From Desulfobacterales bacterium (GTDB lineage: Bacteria > Desulfobacterota > Desulfobacteria > Desulfobacterales > SpSt-501): DNA of 32,720 bases. Under the pieces are notes generated by a model. That model was not told the origin of the DNA. It saw only the letters and a program-made list of their open reading frames with translations, and ran no database searches. Both the position numbers and the translations under genes were made by a program. The stretch spans positions 1 to 32,720 of the forward strand of contig JALOOU010000030.1 of assembly GCA_025454255.1 (NCBI GenBank), read 5' to 3'. Position 1 is the stretch's first letter, and every line of letters starts with the position of its first letter. Shown in pieces: positions 1,729 through 27,228 of this stretch.

Positions 1729-2424
1729 TCATTTCGTCGTTGCGACCTCCGGGGGATGCCCCGCGTTGCGGCCGGGATCGGGCGGGGTGACCATGCCGGC
1801 GGAGACCACCATCTTGATCGCCTCCTCGATCGTCATCTCCAGAAAGACGAGGTCACGGCGCGGCACGAACAGGAGGAAACCCGAGGTGGGGTTGGGGGTG
1901 GTGGGCAGGAAAACGTTGACCACATCCTCCGCGAGCCGGCGCTGGACCTCGCCCTGGGTGGTGCCGCTGACGAACCCGATGACCCAGATGCCGGGCCGCG
2001 GGTATTCGAACATCACCACCTCGCGAAACGCCTGCGATTTTCCGGCCATCATGGTCTCGAAGAATTGTTTGAGGGCGCCGTAGATGCTGCGGACCACCGG
2101 CATGCGGTCCACCACATACTCCGAGGCCCTGATCACCAGGCGGCCGAGAAAATTGCGCGCGAACCAGCCGACCGCGGTGAAAAACACGATGGCGACGAGA
2201 AGCCCGATCCCCGGCACGGAGAAGGGCAGATAGGTGTCCGGGTTGTATTTGGCGGGCAGCAGCCGGGCGACCTTGGCGTCTATGAACTGCAGAAACGACC
2301 AGGTCAGATAGAAGGTGATGGCGATCGGGGCCGTGACCAAGACTCCCGCCAGAAAATAGTTGCGCAACCTTCCCAAAAGGGTCAGCTTGGGGTGGTCGTG
2401 AGGGGTGGCCCGCAGCGGGTTCAT
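1729..2424 (-). CDS. DUF502 family membrane protein
   Basis: A 231-residue protein matching the DUF502 family. Two hydrophobic segments (roughly residues 15-38 and 57-80) are followed by a soluble domain. Typical features are the RNYFLAGVLVTAPIAIT start of helix one, VPGIGLL before helix two, the RMPVVRSIYGALKQ segment and the PTTPNPTSGFLLFVP motif. The molecular function of the family is not established. The ATG at 2424 is used; a TTG at 2442 would add six residues, and neither has a strong ribosome binding site. It is the last gene of a minus-strand block, 73 bases after the AhpD-like gene, so it may be co-transcribed with it. Confidence 0.87.
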   Translation of the reverse strand: MNPLRATPHDHPKLTLLGRLRNYFLAGVLVTAPIAITFYLTWSFLQFIDAKVARLLPAKYNPDTYLPFSVPGIGLLVAIVFFTAVGWFARNFLGRLVIRASEYVVDRMPVVRSIYGALKQFFETMMAGKSQAFREVVMFEYPRPGIWVIGFVSGTTQGEVQRRLAEDVVNVFLPTTPNPTSGFLLFVPRRDLVFLEMTIEEAIKMVVSAGMVTPPDPGRNAGHPPEVATTK

Positions 2425-2497
2425 CGTCTTCTTGACCGGCAATAAGGGTTTCTCTGTGGCCGCTTCGGCCGCATGATGGCAAGGCGGCGCAGGTGCG

Positions 2498-2896
2498 TCA
2501 ACCCGGGTCGGGGGTCACGTCGGGCTCCACCTGGTAGGCGTTGGCAATGCGGTTGGTGCCGCAAAAGAGCTCGACCACCGCAATGATCTCCCCGATGGCT
2601 TCGTTGTCCAGCCCCAGCCGCTTCACGGCGGCACTGTGGGAGTGGATTCAGTATTCGCAGTTGTTGGTGATCGACACGGCGAGGGCGATGATCTCCTTGG
2701 TTCGCAGGTCGAGCTTGCCCGGACGCATGATGGCTTTCAGCTTCTGCCAGGCCGCCTCCAGGTGATCGGGGTTGACCGACATGGCCTTCCAGAAATTGGG
2801 CACGAAATCGATCTTCTTGGTGGCCATGATGTCGTCATAGACCGCCTTGACCTTGCCGGTCGCCTCCTTTTCGGAAACGGTGCGATACAGAGACAT
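2498..2896 (-). CDS. AhpD-like carboxymuconolactone decarboxylase family selenoprotein (Sec at in-frame TGA)
   Basis: A 132-residue AhpD-like alkylhydroperoxidase-family protein if the TGA at 2648-2650 is read as selenocysteine (U83). Conventional gene calling would stop after 82 residues. The frame continues for 49 further codons of convincing family sequence (IHSHSAAVKRLGLD, then GEIIAVVELFCGTNRIANAY) to a TGA at 2498. The AhpD active-site pattern E-x11-C-x2-C-x3-H is reproduced exactly as E68, C80, U83, H87, with the TGA at the second cysteine. AGGAGGT at 2904-2910 fixes the ATG start. The family reduces peroxides or acts as a thiol reductase; a selenolate should increase reactivity. The gene lies 51 bases after an MFS carrier gene. 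A sequencing error or a real nonsense mutation is the alternative, but the intact downstream family sequence and a hairpin after the TGA favour Sec. Confidence 0.87.
2613..2640 (-). promoter_or_regulatory. Candidate bacterial SECIS hairpin for the AhpD-like gene
   Basis: Starting eight bases after the TGA codon, the minus-strand RNA can pair CCCA (2640-2637) with UGGG (2616-2613). After a four-base bulge CAGU ending in an unpaired U, it pairs GCCGC (2632-2628) with GCGGC (2621-2617). The apical loop is CGUGAA. Bacterial SECIS elements lie inside the coding sequence just after the UGA and present a short upper stem, a bulged U and a small loop containing G and U for SelB. This structure has those traits. 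Folding was done by eye only. Confidence 0.55.
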
Positions 2897-2947
2897 GGAT
2901 ACGACCTCCTTGGCGATAGTGATGGCCGCAGAAACGAATCCGTCCGC

Positions 2948-4207
2948 TCAGCGGCGCGAAGCCGCCGCCGCATCGGGCCGTGCCGTTTTGACAAGCCCCA
3001 TGAACGCCAGCGCGCATGCGGCCATGAGCGCACAGGCGAGAAAGGCCCCTTCATACCTTCCGGTTGTATCCCGGATGGCGCCTGAGATCCAGTGGGTCAA
3101 GATGGCGCCCAACCCATAGAAGGGGGTCCAGGCGCCGGCGACCGTTCCCATCGCCTGGCGCGGAAAGTAGTCTCCGGCGCAGGCCCCGTAGATCGGAAAC
3201 GTGGCGCCGTAGAACACCGCCATGGCGGCCGTTATTGCGCACAGGGCGGGCCACGAGACCCCGCCGGGCACCAGCGCGGCGAGCAGGAGCGTGATGACGG
3301 CATTGGAGACCAGAATGGTGTGCTTGCGGCCGAACAGGTCCGAGAGCGGCAGCACGATCAGCACCCCCGCGATTTGAAAAAGCCCATGAACGGTGGCGAG
3401 CAGGCTCGCCTGCCGGATGGGGAACTGCAATTGGTGCACGGCGAAGTCCACCATGAAGGTGGTAAAACCGTAGAGCCCGTAGGAGAGGCAGAAGTAGGAC
3501 GCACCGATGATCCAGAAGTTGCGCTGCCTCAGGATCGAGGCCAGCGACGGCGGGCCCTCGACTGCGGCCGGCCGCAGCGGCGCGGGATCCTGCGGCCCCC
3601 ACGGACGCCGGCCGCGGTCGGCCGGATCGCTGCGCAGGAGCGCCGCGTTCGGCAGCGCCAGCAGCAGCGCCGCCAGCCCCAGAAAATACCATGCGTAACG
3701 CCAGTTGAAGTGCTCCACCACCCAGGGGAACACCACCCCCATGACCGCAAAGCCCAGCCCGTAGCCCGTCGACATGATCCCTAACGCCAGCCCCTTGCGC
3801 CGGATGGAAAACCAGCGCTGGACCAGCGTGATGACCGGCACCCACAGCCCGCTCGCCCCCAGACCGGTAATGCCGAAGGCGACGCAGGCCGCCCAGAGTT
3901 TCTCGGCCGACCCCAGCAGCAGGACCCCGGCGGCAAGCAGCAGCAGGCAGACGCTGATGACCCGCCGGGCTCCGAGCCGGTCGGTCAGGTAGCCGGTGAA
4001 GGGGGCGACGAGGATGTAGGTGAGCAGATAGGCGTTGTAGATGGAGCCGCCGGCGGTTCGGCTCAGCCCCAGTTCCCGGATCATCTCCGGCAAAACCACG
4101 CCGTAGCCCAGACGCACCGAGTAGTTGACGAAGAGGTTCACGAAACAGATCGCCAGCATGATCCAGGCCGGGTGAAGGCTGCTCGGATGGGCCACGGTTT
4201 GCTCCAC
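2948..4207 (-). CDS. Major facilitator superfamily transporter
   Basis: A 419-residue protein of normal MFS length with about twelve hydrophobic helices, the first starting near residue 14. The loop after helix two carries the MFS signature GYLTDRLGARRV, and a related DLFGRKH motif appears in the second half after helix eight. The segment WVPVITLVQRWFSIRRKGLALGI, recognisable by its QRWFSIRRKG core, resembles monocarboxylate or oxalate/formate-type carriers, so an organic anion substrate is plausible but not shown. The start is GTG at 4207 with no clear ribosome binding site. It lies 39 bases after the MBL-fold RNase gene and 51 bases before the AhpD-like gene, in the same direction. It is an inner-membrane secondary carrier of unknown substrate. 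Confidence 0.9.
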   Translation of the reverse strand: MEQTVAHPSSLHPAWIMLAICFVNLFVNYSVRLGYGVVLPEMIRELGLSRTAGGSIYNAYLLTYILVAPFTGYLTDRLGARRVISVCLLLLAAGVLLLGSAEKLWAACVAFGITGLGASGLWVPVITLVQRWFSIRRKGLALGIMSTGYGLGFAVMGVVFPWVVEHFNWRYAWYFLGLAALLLALPNAALLRSDPADRGRRPWGPQDPAPLRPAAVEGPPSLASILRQRNFWIIGASYFCLSYGLYGFTTFMVDFAVHQLQFPIRQASLLATVHGLFQIAGVLIVLPLSDLFGRKHTILVSNAVITLLLAALVPGGVSWPALCAITAAMAVFYGATFPIYGACAGDYFPRQAMGTVAGAWTPFYGLGAILTHWISGAIRDTTGRYEGAFLACALMAACALAFMGLVKTARPDAAAASRR

Positions 4208-4246: not shown

Positions 4247-5827
4247 TCAATTCACGATCAGACTCTCTCCGCGGCGGGGAACGCAGACGCTGAAGCCCTC
4301 CGCCGTCAGCTCGCCGGCGAAGGAGAGCGCCTGGGCCTCCTCGCCGTGCACCAGGGCGATCCGCCCGACCTTGAGGTTGGACTGCTTCAGGAACCGCAGC
4401 ATCTCCTCCTTGTCCGCGTGGGCGCTGAACCCGCCGATCTTCACGACGCGGGCCCTGAGAGGATACTCCTTGTTGAAAAACTTCACCAGCGGCGGCGGAC
4501 CCTGGCGGCCGTCGGCCGCGTAGGCGGCCCCCAGCTCCTCGATGCGGCGGCCGAGGGTGTTCTGCGCCATGTACCCCACGATCAGAATGGTGTTTTTCTC
4601 CCCATGGATCTTGAACCGCAGGTGGTGCAGGATCCGGCCGGCTTCGCACATCCCCGAGGCCGCGATGATGATCTGCGGCCGGTCCTGGCGGTTGAGCGCC
4701 ATGGACTCCTCCACCGAACCGACGAAGCGAACCCGGTCGAAGCGAAACGGATTTTGGCCTTTGGATAGAAACTCGGTCTGGGCATCGCGGTCGTAGAGCT
4801 CGGGGTGTTCGGCGAAAACCCGGGTGAGATTGGTCGCCAACGGGCTGTCGACGTAAATCGGGATGTCGGGCAGTTTTCCCTCGTTGTGCAGCTCATGCAG
4901 CACGTATAGGAGCACCTGCGTGCGGCCGAAGGCGAAGGCGGGGATCAGCATGGTGCCTCCGCGTTGCACCGTTTCCGTCAAGACGTCCAGCAGCGTGGCT
5001 TTGAGGTCGGAGACCGCCTCATGCCGCCGTTCGCCGTAGGTGCTCTCCATGATCAGAAGGTTCAGGCAGCGATCCTCCTCGGCGAACGACAGGGTAGGGT
5101 CGTTTAAAATCGGTTTGCCGAAGCGGCCCAGATCGCCGGTGAAGCCCACGCGAACCGGCCGCCCGTTCTCCTGGAAGGTGAGGATGCTGATGGCCGAGCC
5201 CAGGATATGCCCGGCGTCGTAGAAGGTGCAGCGGGCTGCAGCGCCGATCGTGGCCGGGTGCCGATAGGGGGTGCCGTCGAAGAAACCGAGCGCTTTCTCG
5301 GCGTCGGCCAGGGTGTAAAGCGGTTTGACGCGTTCGATGCGCAACTCGTCCGCCAAACGGTTGATCGTTTCGACATCGAGCTCATGGCGGCCTTTTTTCA
5401 GGATCTTTTTGGCCGCCTCCCGGCGGGCGGAGGAGTCGTTGCCGGCCGCGCGGGGGACGCCGCCGTGAGAGAGCGCCGTGCGAACGCTTTTGTAGTTGAG
5501 GTAGTCTGCATCGGATTCCTGGATACTGGCCGAATCCGGCAGCAGATAGGCGCATGCCGATGCGGTCGCGCGGGTGCAGACGACGCGGCCGTTGAACCCG
5601 TTGGCGGTCAAGACCGGGATCCGGCCGGAGTGGTCGGTGTGGGCGTGGGACAGGACCAGGTTGGTGATCAGCGCAGGGTCGAATGGCAGGACCCTGTTTT
5701 TCTCCGCAGCCTCCCGCCGCCGGCCCTGGAAAAGCCCGCAGTCGAGCAGGATGCGCTCGCTTCCCGAGGCGATCAGGTGCATGGATCCGGTGACTTCCCG
5801 CGCAGCGCCGTAAAAGGTGATTTGCAT
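4247..5827 (-). CDS. MBL-fold beta-CASP ribonuclease-like metallohydrolase
   Basis: A 526-residue protein of the metallo-beta-lactamase fold with beta-CASP and Zn-dependent RNA-specificity C-terminal parts (YSH1/CPSF73-like). Metal-binding motif II is H61-A-H63-T-D65-H66. Further family motifs are FTGDLGR, the beta-CASP segment IPAFAFGRTQ, ASGMCEAGRILHH, GYMAQNTLGRRI and the late SAHADKEE. The family includes RNases that process or degrade RNA. The ATG at 5827 is preferred over an upstream TTG at 5854 because the MQITFYGAAREVTGS start is the usual family start and GAAAGG lies about ten bases before it. It is first in a minus-strand block leading to the MFS carrier. The actual RNA substrate cannot be inferred. 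Confidence 0.93.
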   Translation of the reverse strand: MQITFYGAAREVTGSMHLIASGSERILLDCGLFQGRRREAAEKNRVLPFDPALITNLVLSHAHTDHSGRIPVLTANGFNGRVVCTRATASACAYLLPDSASIQESDADYLNYKSVRTALSHGGVPRAAGNDSSARREAAKKILKKGRHELDVETINRLADELRIERVKPLYTLADAEKALGFFDGTPYRHPATIGAAARCTFYDAGHILGSAISILTFQENGRPVRVGFTGDLGRFGKPILNDPTLSFAEEDRCLNLLIMESTYGERRHEAVSDLKATLLDVLTETVQRGGTMLIPAFAFGRTQVLLYVLHELHNEGKLPDIPIYVDSPLATNLTRVFAEHPELYDRDAQTEFLSKGQNPFRFDRVRFVGSVEESMALNRQDRPQIIIAASGMCEAGRILHHLRFKIHGEKNTILIVGYMAQNTLGRRIEELGAAYAADGRQGPPPLVKFFNKEYPLRARVVKIGGFSAHADKEEMLRFLKQSNLKVGRIALVHGEEAQALSFAGELTAEGFSVCVPRRGESLIVN

Positions 5828-6073
5828 GGTGGCCGGCCTTTCGGTTGGGTGCAATGCGATTGCGTTGATAGGTAGGCAAGGTTCACCGGCATGTCAACCC
5901 CGCGGGTTCGCCTTGCGCCCGGCAGAGCCGGCGGTTGGTCCTTTAAAAATCGAACCACCTGTGGCATAGTCTGCCTCCGCGGCCGGCCGCGCGGGTGCCG
6001 CCGATAGCCTCCAGGCGCCCCGGCCGCCGGCCGCGATGCGTCCAATCGTCTCAGAGCGGAGGATCCTGTACGC

Positions 6074-12553: not shown

Positions 12554-12889
12554 ATGATGACCATCGCGAGACTGCACGACCTGTTTGAATCTCACGCCGG
12601 CAGCACCACGTTGAGCTTTGAAGGCAGGTGCCACGATTGCCAGAAGGATATGAATGTCATGGTGGCGTTAAGCCCGGAGGGTTTTGACATCAGCGGCGGA
12701 GCGCTCTTCGAACCGGAGCCGGACAAGTTTTTCACCAAGTGCGACGAGTGCTACCGCAGCTCCCCCCGGCTTTCCGGCTATCAAACGTGCGAGGTCTACA
12801 GCCGGGTGGTAGGGTATCTGCGCCCCGTTTCCCAGTGGAACGAGGGCAAGCAGGCGGAGTTTGCCGACCGAAAACACTATCGGGTCTGA
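12554..12889 (+). CDS. Stand-alone NrdD C-terminal-like zinc domain protein
   Basis: A 111-residue protein whose C-terminal third resembles the extreme C-terminus of class III anaerobic ribonucleotide reductase (NrdD): CEVYSRVVGYLRP (79-91), W95-N96-E97-G98-K99 and AEFADR (101-106). Two CxxC pairs, C26/C29 and C63/C66, could bind one zinc ion, as the four cysteines in NrdD do, though spaced differently. No glycyl-radical motif and no catalytic NrdD domain are present. It may help assembly or activation of a reductase encoded elsewhere, or be a repurposed zinc domain. The start at 12554 has GGGAAGGGAG and AAGG upstream; an ATG at 12557 is equally possible. It has its own promoter and probably its own terminator, so it is a single-gene unit. 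Confidence 0.72.
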   Translation: MMTIARLHDLFESHAGSTTLSFEGRCHDCQKDMNVMVALSPEGFDISGGALFEPEPDKFFTKCDECYRSSPRLSGYQTCEVYSRVVGYLRPVSQWNEGKQAEFADRKHYRV

Positions 12890-15885: not shown

Positions 15886-16866
15886 TCACGCCCGGCCGGC
15901 CGCCGGATTCTCCGGCAGCGCGCACTCCAGGGCCGCTTTGCGGGTTTCCACATAGTGGGCCGCCGCCAGCGCCGCGGTGCATCCGTCGGCGGCCGACAAC
16001 ACGATCTGGCGCGCATACTTTTCGCGCAGATCGCCGATCACGTAAATCCCCGGCAAGCTCGTCGCACATTTCTCATCGGTCACGACATAGCCATCGGCGT
16101 TCTTCTTGATGCCGGCGGGCACGAGACGGTTGTTCGGATCGAACCCGATAAAAATAAACAACCCGTCGGTGGCAAGTTCGGAGGGGAGACCCGTTTGCGT
16201 GTGTTGGAGTTCCACGGCGGTGACGCCGTTTGCGTCCGCCTTGATGGCCGTCACCACCGAATTCCAGCGGAATTCGATCCGGCACTCGGCTTTGGCCCGC
16301 TGCTGGAGAAGGGCCCCGGCCCGCAGCTTGTCGCGCCGATGAATCACGACGACCTTGGCGGCGAGCTTGGCCAGGTAGAGGGACTCTTCGATGGCCGAGT
16401 CGCCCCCGCCCACCACCGCGACGTTCTTGTTGCGGAAAAAGAATCCGTCGCAGACGGCGCAATAGGACACGCCGCGCCCGTAGAACTCCTTCTCGCCGGG
16501 CACCCCCAACTTGCGCGGACTGCCCCCGGTGGCCAGAATGACGGCGTGCGACGTGAGGCACGCGCCGCCGGCCAGGTGCACCGTGTGGTAGTCCAGCCCC
16601 GGTTCGACGGCGGCCACCTCGTCCGCACGGATCTCAAGCCCGTAGGACTGGGCATGGCTGAGCATTCTCAGCGACAGCTCGGAGCCGCCGATGCGCTCGT
16701 CCCCGGGCCAGTTTTCCACGGCGTCCGACAGGTTCACCTGCCCGCCGGGCGCCGCCATCTCCACCAGAACGGTCTTGAGTGCGGCGCGCATGGCATAGAT
16801 TCCGGCGGTCAGCCCCCCCGGGCCGCCGCCGATGATGACGAGATCGTGCATCTCGGAGCAGTTCAT
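15886..16866 (-). CDS. trxB: Thioredoxin-disulfide reductase
   Basis: A 326-residue low-molecular-weight thioredoxin reductase. The FAD-binding GGGPGG motif is at residues 13-18 and the redox pair is C136-A-V-C139-D. The NAD(P)H-binding GGGDSAIEE motif and the VIHRRDKLRA segment follow, the latter with the HRR pattern typical of NADPH preference. The C-terminal FAD segment is GIYVIGDLREKYARQIVLSAADG, identified by its GIYVIGDLR core. The enzyme reduces thioredoxin or a similar small redox protein in the cytoplasm. ATG at 16866 follows AAGGGG. It starts 14 bases after the class IV aminotransferase gene and is probably transcribed from the same promoter. The same frame stays open much further upstream, but that part is a shadow of the aminotransferase gene. 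A ferredoxin- or flavodoxin-type partner cannot be excluded. Confidence 0.93.
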   Translation of the reverse strand: MNCSEMHDLVIIGGGPGGLTAGIYAMRAALKTVLVEMAAPGGQVNLSDAVENWPGDERIGGSELSLRMLSHAQSYGLEIRADEVAAVEPGLDYHTVHLAGGACLTSHAVILATGGSPRKLGVPGEKEFYGRGVSYCAVCDGFFFRNKNVAVVGGGDSAIEESLYLAKLAAKVVVIHRRDKLRAGALLQQRAKAECRIEFRWNSVVTAIKADANGVTAVELQHTQTGLPSELATDGLFIFIGFDPNNRLVPAGIKKNADGYVVTDEKCATSLPGIYVIGDLREKYARQIVLSAADGCTAALAAAHYVETRKAALECALPENPAAGRA

Positions 16867-16880
16867 TCGGTCCCCTTTTT

Positions 16881-17726
16881 TTACTGGGCTGCGGCGGCCA
16901 GGCGATTCGTCAGCTCCTCGAAGGCCTGCATCAGGACGAGAGTGCGGGCGCCGGGTCTGCCGCTGCCGATGGTGTCCTTGTCGACCTGCACGATGGGGAC
17001 GATTTTGCGGTTGGAAGAGGTGATGAACGCCTCGTCGGCCGAGGAGAGCTCCGCACGGAGGATGTCGCGGATATCGACCTGAAAACGCTTTTCGGCCAGC
17101 TCCAGGACTTTTTGGCGCGTAATGCCGTGCAGGATGTTTTCGCCGGGGGTGACAAGGGTGTCGCCTCGGAAGAAAAACAGATTGCTGGTGGTGCCCTCGC
17201 GGACCCGGCCCAAGGAGTCCATGTAGACGACCTCGATGGCCCCCTTGCGGCGGGCTTCGGCCAGCACCATAATCGCCCGGGTGTAATCGATGGTCTTGGC
17301 GGCGGGAATCGTGCGGGTGTGGGTGACGGTGATGATCTTGGCACCGTCGGTATACCACGCCGGGGGATACTGGTTGACCGGCGCGACCATGATGGCCATC
17401 CGCGTCTTGCCCTGCGGGGTGATGAAATCGGCGCTGGGGCCTCCGGTCACCAGGATGCGGACATTGGACTCCACCGGCGGGTTGCGCCGAAGGGTCTCCT
17501 GCACGAGGTCGCAGATTTCGGTTTCGGTCCAGGGCAGCTCGATGCCGATCTCCCGCACCGAGCGGAACAAGCGGCGCACATGGTCTTTGATGAAAATGGG
17601 TTTCCCGTGATAGGTGCGCATGAAGTCGAAGCACCCGTAGCCGCGCAACAGCCCGAGATCATTTACCGGGAAAACCGCCTCCGCCTCCGCAACGAACTTT
17701 CCATCGACGTAGTACACATTCGCCAT
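16881..17726 (-). CDS. Class IV aminotransferase (branched-chain or D-amino acid type)
   Basis: A 281-residue PLP fold-type IV aminotransferase. K144 in AAKTIDYTRAI is the expected PLP lysine and E177 in VREGTTSNLFF the conserved pyridine-nitrogen glutamate. The NDLGLLRGYGCFDFMRTY start, with Arg at position 28, is typical. Members include branched-chain aminotransferase (IlvE), D-amino acid aminotransferase and aminodeoxychorismate lyase; the length and TRAIMVLAEARRKG segment best suit an aminotransferase, but the substrate is not resolved. A strong promoter lies upstream, and GAGAGGA precedes the start. trxB follows after 14 bases. Confidence 0.9.
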   Translation of the reverse strand: MANVYYVDGKFVAEAEAVFPVNDLGLLRGYGCFDFMRTYHGKPIFIKDHVRRLFRSVREIGIELPWTETEICDLVQETLRRNPPVESNVRILVTGGPSADFITPQGKTRMAIMVAPVNQYPPAWYTDGAKIITVTHTRTIPAAKTIDYTRAIMVLAEARRKGAIEVVYMDSLGRVREGTTSNLFFFRGDTLVTPGENILHGITRQKVLELAEKRFQVDIRDILRAELSSADEAFITSSNRKIVPIVQVDKDTIGSGRPGARTLVLMQAFEELTNRLAAAAQ

Positions 17727-18224: not shown

Positions 18225-20138
18225 GTGACGCCTCACACCCAGGCGGCTGCGGCCGCCAGCGGCCCGGCCCGCAGCGGCGACGCATCCGCCCCGCACAACA
18301 TCGTCGAACTGCTGATCGATGCCGGCGACGTGAGCCGCGATCAGCTGGGCTATGCCCGGAGGGTGCAGGCCAAGCTCGAAGTCCCGCGCCCGATCCTGGA
18401 GGTACTGAAGGACCTCAAATTCATCTCCGATGAGCAGATCAAGGCGGCCGTCCGGAAAAACCCCTCGCCCATGTGCCTGGGGAACCTCCTGGTGGAACTC
18501 GGGCGGATCCGTGAGGACGACCTGCGTGTGGCCCTGACGATCCAGGCGGAGCAGGGGTCGGGCAAGCGCTTGGGCGAGATCTTGCTCGAACGCCGCCTCA
18601 TCGACGAGCGCTCCCTGATCGAGGTGCTCTCGCTGCAGATGGGCTTTCCCTACGTCGAGCCCGATTTCACCGAAATCGACCCGCGGTTGTTTTTGAAGGC
18701 CCCCGCCAAATGGTACGAGACCCACCGCTTCGTACCCGTCCGCATGGACGACGGCAAGCCGTTGATCGCCTTCGCCGACCCGATGGACAAAGCCGCCCTC
18801 AATGCGGCGCGCGAAGTCTTCGGGCCGGCCTTCACCACCGCCATCGCCCGCCAGGGCTCCATAGACCGCGCGATCAAGCGCGCCCAACGCACCAAGCAGC
18901 GCGAACGCATCTCGCCGTCGGACGAGGGCTCCATCATCGCCATGGTCGACGGCATCATTCAAGCCGCCGTCGAACGCAAGGCGAGCGACATCCACATCGA
19001 GCCGCTCAAGGAGCACATTCGGGTGCGGTTCCGCCAGGACGGCGTCCTGATTCACTACGACGACTTCCCCTCCCCCCTGCACGGCGCCGTGACCAATCGG
19101 CTGAAGGTCATGTGCGACGTGGACATCACCGAAAAGCGGCGGCACCAGGGGGGACGCTTCTTCGTCGATCAGGCGGACAGCCAGCTCGACCTGCGCGCGT
19201 CGTTCTACGTGACGGTCCACGGCGAAAAAATCGTCCTGCGCCTGCTGAACCGCCAGGGCCTCCTGATCCACATCGAAGAGGTGGGGATGTCGCCGCGCAT
19301 GCTCGAGCGCTTCAAGGAAGACGCCCTCTACCTGCCGAGCGGCGTCATCCTCATCACCGGACCGACCGGATCGGGCAAAACGACGACGGTATACAGCTGC
19401 ATCAACCACATCAACGACCCCCAGACCAGCATCATCACGGCCGAGGAACCCGTCGAATACGTGATCGACGGCATCTCCCAATGCTCGATCAACCCCCGGA
19501 TCCAGCTGACCTTCGAGGAGACGCTCCGGCACATCGTGCGCCAGGACCCGGATGTGATCGTCATCGGCGAAATCCGCGACAACTTCTCGGCCGAGGTGGC
19601 GGTCCAGGCGGCGCTGACCGGGCACAAGGTGATCACCACCTTCCACACCGAGGACAGCATCGGCGGCCTGGTGCGCCTGCTGAACATGAACATCGAAGCC
19701 TTTCTGATCTCCTCGACCGTGGTGAGCGTCATGGCGCAGCGGCTGCTGCGCAAGGTCTGCAGCGACTGTGCCGTGCCCTACCGCCCCACGCCGCTGGACC
19801 TCCAGCGCCTCGGCTACGGTCCGGCGGATGTCGCCCAGGCCCGGTTTCAGAAAGGCCAGGGCTGCGCGCAGTGCCAGTACACGGGCTATCGTGGCCGGGT
19901 CGGCATCTTCGAGCTCCTGATCCTGAACGAGGACATCCGCAATGCCATCATCGATCACAAGACCAGCCAGGAGATCCGCCGCATCAGCATCGACGCCACC
20001 GGGCTCACGACCCTCCTGGAGGACGGCATCGTCAAGGCGGCCTCCGGCGTGACCACCATCGAAGAGCTGTTGCGCTGCCTGCCCCGGCTGCAGCGGCCCC
20101 GACCGCTGCCTGAACTCCAACGACTGCTGGAGGTGTGA
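18225..20138 (+). CDS. GspE/PilB-type secretion ATPase with MshEN-like N-terminus
   Basis: A 637-residue hexameric-motor-type ATPase of the GspE/PulE/PilB family. The N-terminal region has two tandem MshEN-like segments. The first starts C84-L-G and ends at Q107; the second starts R115-L-G and ends at Q138. Each has the L/I spacing seen in c-di-GMP-binding MshEN domains, but the first lacks the usual Arg. The ATPase domain has Walker A GPTGSGKT (379-386), the aspartate-box and Walker B region DVIVIGEIRD (443-452) and a four-cysteine zinc motif (C512, C515, C547, C550). Such ATPases power pilus assembly or type II secretion from the cytoplasmic face. No pilin, platform or secretin gene is in the window. 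The start is GTG at 18225 after AAAGGAA. An HDOD gene follows two bases downstream. Confidence 0.93.
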   Translation: MTPHTQAAAAASGPARSGDASAPHNIVELLIDAGDVSRDQLGYARRVQAKLEVPRPILEVLKDLKFISDEQIKAAVRKNPSPMCLGNLLVELGRIREDDLRVALTIQAEQGSGKRLGEILLERRLIDERSLIEVLSLQMGFPYVEPDFTEIDPRLFLKAPAKWYETHRFVPVRMDDGKPLIAFADPMDKAALNAAREVFGPAFTTAIARQGSIDRAIKRAQRTKQRERISPSDEGSIIAMVDGIIQAAVERKASDIHIEPLKEHIRVRFRQDGVLIHYDDFPSPLHGAVTNRLKVMCDVDITEKRRHQGGRFFVDQADSQLDLRASFYVTVHGEKIVLRLLNRQGLLIHIEEVGMSPRMLERFKEDALYLPSGVILITGPTGSGKTTTVYSCINHINDPQTSIITAEEPVEYVIDGISQCSINPRIQLTFEETLRHIVRQDPDVIVIGEIRDNFSAEVAVQAALTGHKVITTFHTEDSIGGLVRLLNMNIEAFLISSTVVSVMAQRLLRKVCSDCAVPYRPTPLDLQRLGYGPADVAQARFQKGQGCAQCQYTGYRGRVGIFELLILNEDIRNAIIDHKTSQEIRRISIDATGLTTLLEDGIVKAASGVTTIEELLRCLPRLQRPRPLPELQRLLEV

Positions 20139-20140
20139 GC

Positions 20141-21004
20141 ATGGGGTCCGCCCCGTCGTTCATCGAGATCGTCGAAAACCGCATTGCCGGCAACCGCGTA
20201 CGACTGCCGGTGTTCAACGCCACGGCCATCCGCGTCCAGCAGGAGGTCGGCCAGGAGGACCCGGACCTGCGCCTGATCGAAAGGCTCATCGTCAGCGACC
20301 AGGCCTTGACCGCCGAGGTCCTGCGCTTCTCGAACTCCTCCTTCTACAAGGGGCTCTCGCAGGTAACCTCGGTGCGCACCGCCATTGTGCGGCTGGGGAT
20401 CAACGAGGTCGCCAACATCGTCATGATGGTGGCCCATGAAAACCAGTTTCGATCAAAGGATCCGTTTTTGAACGGCGTCATGCGCAAGCTCTGGTGCCAT
20501 GCGCTGGGCACCGCCATGGCGGCCCACTGGCTCACGCGGCACTGCGGCCTGCCCGGGGTCGCCCATGAGGCCTTTTTCGCCGGCCTGCTGCACGATGTGG
20601 GCAAACTGTTCATCCTGACGGTGATCGACGACATCCAGCATTCCGGAGAACTCTCGGTCAAGCCTCCCGTCGCGCTGCTGATGGAGGCCATGGACGACCT
20701 GCACGCGACCCACGGCTACGCCCTCATGCACCACTGGAATCTGCCGGAAAAGTACAGCCGCGTGGTGCGCGACCACCACGCGGAACCGATGGAGGCCGAA
20801 AACCATCTGATGATGAGCGTACGCCTGGCGAATCTGACCTGCCACAAAATGGGCATCGGCCTGCGCCAGAACCTTACGCTGATGCTGGCGGCCACGGCCG
20901 AGGCGAGCGAACTGCACCTTTCCGAGATCGACATTGCCCGGCTGGAAATCATGCTGGAGGATTCCCAGGCGTTTGGTCTCAAGGAGTCACAGGCCCCCAA
21001 ATGA
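20141..21004 (+). CDS. HDOD domain protein
   Basis: A 287-residue protein made almost entirely of an HDOD domain, a divergent HD-like fold used in bacterial signalling. Typical features are LPVFNATAIRVQQ near the start, LIVSDQALTAEVLRFSNSSFY, TSVRTAIVRLG and the retained GLLHDVGK motif. HDOD proteins often lack hydrolase activity and act as protein-interaction modules in c-di-GMP, chemotaxis or stress pathways. ATG at 20141 is chosen over a GTG at 20135 because GGAGG lies seven bases before it. The gene starts two bases after the GspE-type stop, so the two products are probably made together and may interact. The C-terminal quarter (QNLTLMLAATAEASELHLS) is a helical extension. Confidence 0.92.
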   Translation: MGSAPSFIEIVENRIAGNRVRLPVFNATAIRVQQEVGQEDPDLRLIERLIVSDQALTAEVLRFSNSSFYKGLSQVTSVRTAIVRLGINEVANIVMMVAHENQFRSKDPFLNGVMRKLWCHALGTAMAAHWLTRHCGLPGVAHEAFFAGLLHDVGKLFILTVIDDIQHSGELSVKPPVALLMEAMDDLHATHGYALMHHWNLPEKYSRVVRDHHAEPMEAENHLMMSVRLANLTCHKMGIGLRQNLTLMLAATAEASELHLSEIDIARLEIMLEDSQAFGLKESQAPK

Positions 21005-26340: not shown

Positions 26341-27228
26341 ATGGCGGACACCCCCCACTCTTCCGGCGGCGGCCCGGCCGCCGCGGGCGACATCAAGAGC
26401 CAAGCCCTGCGCAGCCTGGTCAAACTCTCCCCGCGACCGCTGGTCATTCTCAGGGCCCGAGAGGTTTTGGCGGACCCGAATGCCGGGCTGCGGGATCTGA
26501 CGAACATCATCGAAGACGACCTCGCCCTTGTGGCCAAGGTGCTGGCGCTCGCCAACTCCGCCTACTTCGGCATCGGCGGACAGGTCTCCTCGGTTCGGCA
26601 CGCCGCGGCCCTGCTGGGCTTCCAAACGCTGGGGGAGCTCATCACTCTCTCCGCCTCCGCCCTGTGGTTAGGCTGCGAGTTGACGGCCTATCGCCTCAAC
26701 GCCCGCCGGGTCTGGGCGCACTCCCTAGCCACGGCGCTCTGCGCGCGCCGCATCGCCGCAACGCGATTCCCCGAAATCGCGGCGGACGCCTTCGTGGTCG
26801 GCTTGCTGCACGATGCCGGCAAGGTGATTCTGGAACCCTTTCTGCAACAGCGCCAGGCGCAGCTGGACGCCGTGTGCCGACCCTTGGCGCCGGTCACACG
26901 GGATGCCGAGCGGCAGATCCTCGGCATCGACCACGCCGAGATGATGGCGCGTGCCTGCCGGTTCTGGCGTTTCCCGGAGTCCCTGACGCAGGCGATCCGT
27001 TTCCACCACAGCCCGGCGCTCCCGGCGCAAAGCGCTCTGGCCCACATCGCCCACACGGCCAACGCCGTCGCCCACAGGGCAGAGGCGCTGCCGGGGCAGG
27101 TCGAAACCATCGCGGTGGAGGCGGAGGCTCTGGATTTTCTGATGATCGATCGCGAAGACCTGGACCGGCTGCAGGCCGACATGATCGCTGGGGTGAGAAA
27201 GCTCGAAGGTGAACCCGATAACGCCTGA
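26341..27228 (+). CDS. HDOD domain protein (second copy)
   Basis: A 295-residue HDOD protein related to, but clearly diverged from, the one at 20141. After an Ala/Gly-rich 17-residue start comes the HDOD domain: KLSPRPLVILRAREVLADPN, IIEDDLALVAKVLALANSAYF, SVRHAAALLGFQTLGEL and GLLHDAGKVILEP. The NSAYFG and SSVRHA stretches are the most typical. The final 50 residues form a helical tail. It probably acts as a regulatory or scaffolding protein. It has its own promoter and lies 103 bases before the HD-domain gene, with a small inverted repeat (GGGGGAA with TTCCCCC, 27278-27295) between them, so the two may be only partly co-expressed. Confidence 0.92.
   Translation: MADTPHSSGGGPAAAGDIKSQALRSLVKLSPRPLVILRAREVLADPNAGLRDLTNIIEDDLALVAKVLALANSAYFGIGGQVSSVRHAAALLGFQTLGELITLSASALWLGCELTAYRLNARRVWAHSLATALCARRIAATRFPEIAADAFVVGLLHDAGKVILEPFLQQRQAQLDAVCRPLAPVTRDAERQILGIDHAEMMARACRFWRFPESLTQAIRFHHSPALPAQSALAHIAHTANAVAHRAEALPGQVETIAVEAEALDFLMIDREDLDRLQADMIAGVRKLEGEPDNA

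Follow-up and report, generated by a model that had tools for sequence, protein, structure and literature searches.

A predicted selenocysteine-containing AhpD-like protein encoded through an in-frame TGA in a Desulfobacterales genome

We study a gene whose reading frame passes through an internal TGA in a 32,720-nucleotide stretch of a Desulfobacterales genome (here called the window, meaning the whole stretch analysed). The gene lies on the minus strand at 2498..2896 and comprises 132 codons plus the stop: it opens with an ATG, reaches the TGA at codon 83 (2650-2648), continues for 49 further codons and ends at a second TGA (2500-2498). A Shine-Dalgarno sequence, AAGGAGG (2905..2911, minus strand), stands 8 nt 5' of the ATG, and GGAG-containing sites also precede 10 of the 11 other TGA genes printed, the 10 being those with readable upstream sequence. 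Translation of the frame bears out the original prediction as to the frame itself, the position of the TGA and the codons that follow it; its expectation that standard annotation would yield an 82-residue protein lacking the active site also holds, since a plain listing of open reading frames gives 82 amino acids only (2896-2648). The read-through product, with U scored as Cys, matches the Pfam CMD family (PF02627) at 74.3 bits (cut-off 23), compared with 34.9 bits for the 82-residue stump. The TGA (2648..2650, minus strand) stands where the second residue of a CxxC motif is expected and is read here as a predicted selenocysteine (Sec). Its partner thiol is Cys80 (2657..2659, minus strand), and the predicted proton-relay residues Glu68 and His87 are encoded at 2693..2695 and 2636..2638 on the same strand, Glu68 being the counterpart, judged from the spacing of the motif, of Glu118 in M. 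tuberculosis AhpD.

The neighbouring genes supply context only. Upstream, across a 51-nt gap, lies an MFS transporter gene (2948..4207, minus strand; PF07690, 193.3 bits), followed by a gene for an MBL-fold RNase-like protein with Beta-Casp and RMMBL domains (4247..5854, minus strand); downstream, across a 55-nt gap, lies a DUF502 gene (1729..2442, minus strand; PF04367, 121.5 bits). The arrangement of the MFS, selenoprotein and DUF502 genes on one strand with such short gaps is compatible with one transcript. When nine neighbour proteins of the window are compared with 18 family loci, several of which are short, strong matches appear in just one locus (L052, from the same genus); L045 gives a single weak MFS-like match at 26% identity, and the other 16 loci give no match to these proteins, including the 10 kb loci around the Sec genes of two congeners (L038 and L039). 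The original prediction had placed the novelty of the locus in its MFS and RNase setting, a claim that fails because that setting is absent beside the gene in both congeners. We rejected the gene neighbourhood as a clue to function on the same ground, and with no conserved neighbour it gives no pointer to a partner. Elsewhere in the window we note a 111-residue protein with two CxxC motifs (12554-12889, plus strand) that matches PF13597 at 48.5 bits, covering the C-terminal end only of anaerobic ribonucleotide reductase, and two HDOD-domain proteins (20135-21004 and 26341-27228, plus strand) 5 kb apart with Lon-like and M20-peptidase-like genes between them.

The protein scores 52.9 bits against the AhpD core domain model TIGR00778 (cut-off 27.8; U as Cys). 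To place its residues we aligned it with 36 homologues chosen from 120 listed, a set from which Trp-bearing rows are absent, and in these 37 sequences Glu68, Cys80, Tyr82, Cys/Sec83 and His87 are invariant (U as Cys). The predicted spacing E68-x11-C80-x2-U83-x3-H87 was thus right, and it matches by spacing the five-residue proton relay described for AhpD (PMC3141380); that paper names both AhpD cysteines as catalytic and designates neither as peroxidatic or resolving, and the original prediction's placing of selenocysteine at the resolving-cysteine position is thus unsupported. AlphaFold2, given the Cys-substituted read-through product and the 36 chosen homologues, returns a best model of six helices with a mean pLDDT of 94.3 (the five models score 94.3, 93.9, 93.4, 76.2 and 71.1), in which residue 83 falls early in a helix spanning 81-93. 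The nearest solved structure is 2ouw (TM 0.90, rmsd 1.3, 39% identity). The window genome encodes three more CMD-family proteins, all free of in-frame stops, and a 1-cysPrx_C (PF10417) protein. A thioredoxin-reductase-like gene with a CAVCDG motif lies in the window at 15886-16884 (minus strand), 13 kb from the selenoprotein gene. We considered the TGA at 15886 as a second read-through site and rejected it, as the thioredoxin-reductase-like domain is complete before this TGA (the stretch beyond was read by eye).

To ask how codon 83 varies in the family we collected 98 loci, 18 of them from drawn genomes (the window's own gene included) and 80 from genome contigs. The codon is TGA in 20 of the 98 and TGC or TGT in 77, with one locus (L088) not covering it; position 83 is therefore TGA or Cys in all 97 covering loci, in line with the alignment test that the original prediction had proposed. 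Codon 80, by comparison, is never TGA and is TGC or TGT in all 97 loci that cover it. Seven loci were reached by both searches, as matched by position and sequence (TGA loci L038, L039, L044, L046 and L052 are L021, L022, L025, L026 and L028; Cys loci L041 and L042 are L023 and L024), which leaves 15 distinct TGA and 75 distinct Cys loci. Among the 15, L048 begins at a contig end and one copy from a congener (L052:5001-5322, the same as L028) is broken: it keeps the TGA, and a 71-bp deletion directly 3' removes the hairpin described below and shifts the frame, so that this copy is a pseudogene or a misassembly. The named TGA records are metagenome-assembled genomes labelled Desulfobacterales, Desulfosarcina, Deltaproteobacteria, Desulfohalobiaceae, Syntrophomonadaceae and Planctomycetota, and their phyla are Thermodesulfobacteriota, Bacillota and Planctomycetota.

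A protein search gave 2651 matching proteins, and among the 120 of these that were listed, 110 have CxxCxxxH, nine (P0013-P0020 and P0111) carry Trp at position 83, and in one (P0029) the stretch is missing. The nine Trp entries probably stem from metagenome contigs to which genetic code 4 was applied. One listed protein, P0044, is a 94-residue database entry that begins at Met41 and shares 97% identity with the window protein across 93 columns; available as protein sequence alone, it has Cys at codon 83 and we count it against the Sec reading.

If the codons beyond the TGA are translated, they should evolve as protein. We estimated dN/dS from counts of synonymous and non-synonymous differences that separate the window gene from nine other TGA genes, and find values of 0.04-0.23 on the 3' side of the TGA in 9 of 9 comparisons and of 0.08-0.27 on the 5' side in the seven comparisons that could be computed (synonymous change is saturated for L043 and L047). 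Judged from these substitution counts, purifying selection 3' of the TGA is about as strong as it is 5', and the low ratios past the TGA argue that the downstream part is kept as protein.

Decoding of TGA as Sec in bacteria calls on a SECIS element, described as a hairpin with a small apical loop containing a guanosine (PMC1088965). Soon after the TGA the window gene has such a hairpin, with a G in its small apical loop: the predicted apical stem-loop, GCCGC-CGTGAA-GCGGC (2617..2632, minus strand), lies 16-31 nt after the TGA within a folded element at 2607-2646. Its minimum free energy is -20.2 kcal/mol, a stability equalled by 13 of 200 dinucleotide shuffles; of 5000 synonymous recodings that leave the peptide unchanged, 1.46% are as stable and 522 retain all five apical stem pairs. 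This suggests that the single-sequence fold is only moderately unusual, too weak alone as proof of a SECIS, and we judge the hairpin to be more than chance because of the comparative evidence between genes. Of 15 Sec loci, 12 have all five stem pairs (with a loop variant, CGTGCA, in L049), versus 0 of 12 Cys loci, the latter a chosen subset. The three exceptions are L028, where the hairpin is deleted, and L029 and L031, two distant Sec genes with a different hairpin whose loop nevertheless carries G25-T26 (counted from the T of TGA) as in the main group; against 200 shuffles the fold of L029 is ordinary (41 equally stable) and that of L031 less so (5 equally stable). Column covariation between the main hairpin and those of L029 and L031 was tried and proved unusable, as the stems are in different register, and we therefore used synonymous-codon conservation in its place. 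In 11 gap-free TGA genes, 277 of 320 synonymous comparisons (87%) are identical at the hairpin codons 89-94, as against 2241 of 4591 (49%) in the gene background with codons 84-98 excluded, and the best of 126 six-codon windows is codons 88-93 (276 of 290, 95%); these comparisons are pairs of related genes and so non-independent. When the 11 Sec genes are set against four selected Cys genes, agreement at codons 89-94 is 82 of 205 (40%), compared with 1599 of 3103 over the rest. The SECIS-like hairpin of the original prediction is thus upheld, more by codon conservation among TGA genes than by its modest fold. Rfam at gathering thresholds gives no match within the window, and an exact search of viral contigs for the SECIS pattern found nothing.

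The window genome, a 4.1 Mb draft of 194 contigs that is 87.3% complete, encodes the machinery that Sec decoding needs. Each of the four genes named in the original prediction is present above its family cut-off: selA (622 bits), selB (364.9 bits), selD (376.2 bits) and the tRNA-Sec gene selC, which scores 74 bits against a gathering score of 47 and whose anticodon, read by eye from the alignment, is UCA; an ARAGORN run on the same genome left this tRNA uncalled. The selD gene contains one in-frame TGA, read as GAGUASK, which makes it a second Sec site in the genome. At the selD locus (L015), an open stretch further on resembles a YedF-type protein. Sec is often carried by SelD itself (PMC2398784).

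Taken together, the exchange of TGA and Cys at codon 83, the selection downstream, the conservation of the hairpin codons and the Sec machinery make Sec decoding the best reading of this gene, and the selenoprotein reading proposed at the outset is supported on all four counts. We consider it very likely, on sequence comparison, that this AhpD-fold gene has its codon-83 TGA decoded as selenocysteine by the organism's own SelA, SelB, tRNA-Sec and SelD, directed by the predicted SECIS. Were the TGA instead a true stop, leaving a pseudogene or an 82-residue stump, the open reading frame listing of 82 amino acids would be the correct one, and the congener copy broken by a deletion and frameshift directly 3' of its TGA would fit as a further case of decay. 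Such a stop is hard to reconcile with purifying selection that is about equal on the two sides of the TGA, with a TGA shared by 15 distinct loci whose named records span three phyla, with Sec machinery in the genome and with a conservation of hairpin codons that is seen between TGA genes but not in comparisons with Cys genes; we hold it to be extremely unlikely. We find it just as improbable that sequencing or assembly error has replaced a real TGC or TGT, for although the window comes from a draft genome in 194 contigs and the near-identical P0044 has Cys, TGA stands at this codon in other assemblies too, and the window's apical hairpin is common to 11 other TGA loci and absent from the 12 Cys genes examined.

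The TGA might also be decoded as some other residue, such as Trp through a suppressor resembling genetic code 4, and W does stand at codon 83 in nine of the 120 homologues listed. Those entries fit contigs translated with code 4, however, and the selenoprotein gene itself terminates in TGA, as does the thioredoxin-reductase-like gene at 15886, where the domain is already complete. Trp would furthermore destroy the CxxC motif at a position where the other codons seen among the loci are those for Cys, and tRNA-Sec and SelB are present; of the readings considered we give this one the least credence. A last alternative keeps Sec and adds a switch, in which the Sec form is made with selenium and a truncated form with a role of its own without it. 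UGA can terminate translation whenever Sec-tRNA is scarce, which speaks for such a switch, but the stump would break off where the second active-site helix begins (modelled as residues 81-93), and we regard a functional truncation as highly unlikely.

Returning to Sec decoding as the preferred reading, we now consider how Sec and Cys forms are distributed. A homologue (E <= 1e-20) is carried by 17 of 291 genomes drawn from the order, nine with a TGA copy and eight with Cys only; one of the nine (G066) carries both a Sec and a Cys copy (L031 and L037). Seven genomes drawn from the window's own genus divide into three with the TGA gene intact, one with it broken, two with Cys and one with no match. 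Wider draws at E <= 1e-25 added no homologue, 389 genomes of the class returning the same 17 and 395 of the phylum the window's own only. Across 18 genomes, namely these 17 and G190, selA is above cut-off in every one and selB in all but G174, which is 80% complete; loss of these two genes therefore does not explain the Cys forms.

We built a tree from 92 chosen rows of loci and listed proteins, leaving out duplicates as well as short loci and those that come after L072. When eight Trp entries are taken presumptively as Sec and P0029 and P0044 go uncounted, the Sec/Cys label changes five times on this tree (bootstrap range 4-6). A first labelling that took ten ambiguous proteins as Cys gave 10 changes and was dropped, since eight of the ten have Trp at 83 and P0029 has a deletion. 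A single clade of all 22 Sec rows is rejected (AU p 0.00024), and one of the 19 core Sec rows is not (AU p 0.455). On this tree, then, the predicted Sec forms do not make one clade. The tree is short (132 columns) and unrooted, so that gain and loss are indistinguishable on it, and one old gain of Sec followed by several losses may be compatible with it. A 2006 survey counted 15 Sec/Cys events in four families (PMC1794560). We entertain, tentatively and without preferring it, the idea of a small AhpD-core subfamily, single-domain and scoring under the cut-off of the nearest curated family, that switches freely between Sec and Cys. In it Sec would have arisen on two or more occasions, using two distinct SECIS hairpins, and the Cys forms of the genus, found in selA/selB genomes, may include reversions from Sec to Cys, a kind of change described chiefly in FdhA and SelD.

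Selenocysteine AhpD-like proteins were already known, as the original prediction had recognised. A 2005 report described CxxU forms from the Sargasso Sea (PMC1088965), AhpD-like selenoproteins were among the most frequent families of the GOS set in 2008 (PMC2398784), and a 2026 review lists CxxU AhpD-like proteins under TIGR01926, PF02627, NF041047, NF041238 and NF041537 (PMC13188914). With the AhpD-like selenoproteins of COG2128/TIGR01926 (GOS AhpD-like 1), as these three sources describe them, the window protein shares the CMD/AhpD core, Sec in place of the second CxxC cysteine and a predicted SECIS downstream. It differs from them in being a 132-residue single-domain protein that matches TIGR01926 over residues 5-93 only and below cut-off (70.8 bits against 81.8, U as Cys). 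That it belongs to the known CxxU AhpD-like selenoproteins, as a short form with one domain, is well supported. The CMD-like selenoprotein of the review (PF02627, for example MBW1767730.1) is alike by description in its PF02627 domain and CxxU motif (PMC13188914), and the two proteins may belong to the same subfamily. The GSU3128 family of distant AhpD homologues (NF041047) is AhpD-related and has Sec at the same motif position, but the window protein, at 24.5 bits against a cut-off of 110, is no member. The R. rubrum AhpD core protein 2ouw is similar in length and fold and has Cys where the window protein has Sec. M. tuberculosis AhpD (1gu9/1knc) has the E-x11-C-x2-C-x3-H relay motif in common with it and matches in sequence at 24.1 bits, yet the window protein does not belong to AhpD proper (TIGR00777, 26.9 bits against 191.95).

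What was computed here is the frame, the TGA/Cys exchange, the codon conservation of the hairpin, the selection downstream of the TGA, the set of machinery genes and a predicted fold; actual Sec insertion, a peroxidase or adaptor activity, the electron donor and the substrate are inferred. In the mechanism we propose, the predicted SECIS hairpin would direct Sec insertion at codon 83 and so create a C80-x-x-U83 redox pair. If the protein works like AhpD, protons would be relayed by Glu68, Tyr82 and His87, and the U83/C80 pair would alternate between selenol/thiol and selenenylsulfide; peroxides would be reduced by the protein directly, or its electrons handed to a peroxiredoxin. The thioredoxin-reductase-like protein (15886-16884) is a possible candidate for the electron donor.

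These results bear on how such genes are found and used. Plain gene calling drops the active site of this AhpD-like protein, and metagenome databases contain Trp-at-Sec entries that resemble code-4 misreadings. What this analysis adds to the known family is modest: the window's genus contains both Sec and Cys forms while retaining selA and selB, and the Sec forms do not group as a single clade. With such closely related natural pairs, drawn from a single genus in which Sec-form and Cys-form genomes alike encode selA and selB, the chemistry of the two residues could be compared directly within the same AhpD-like scaffold.
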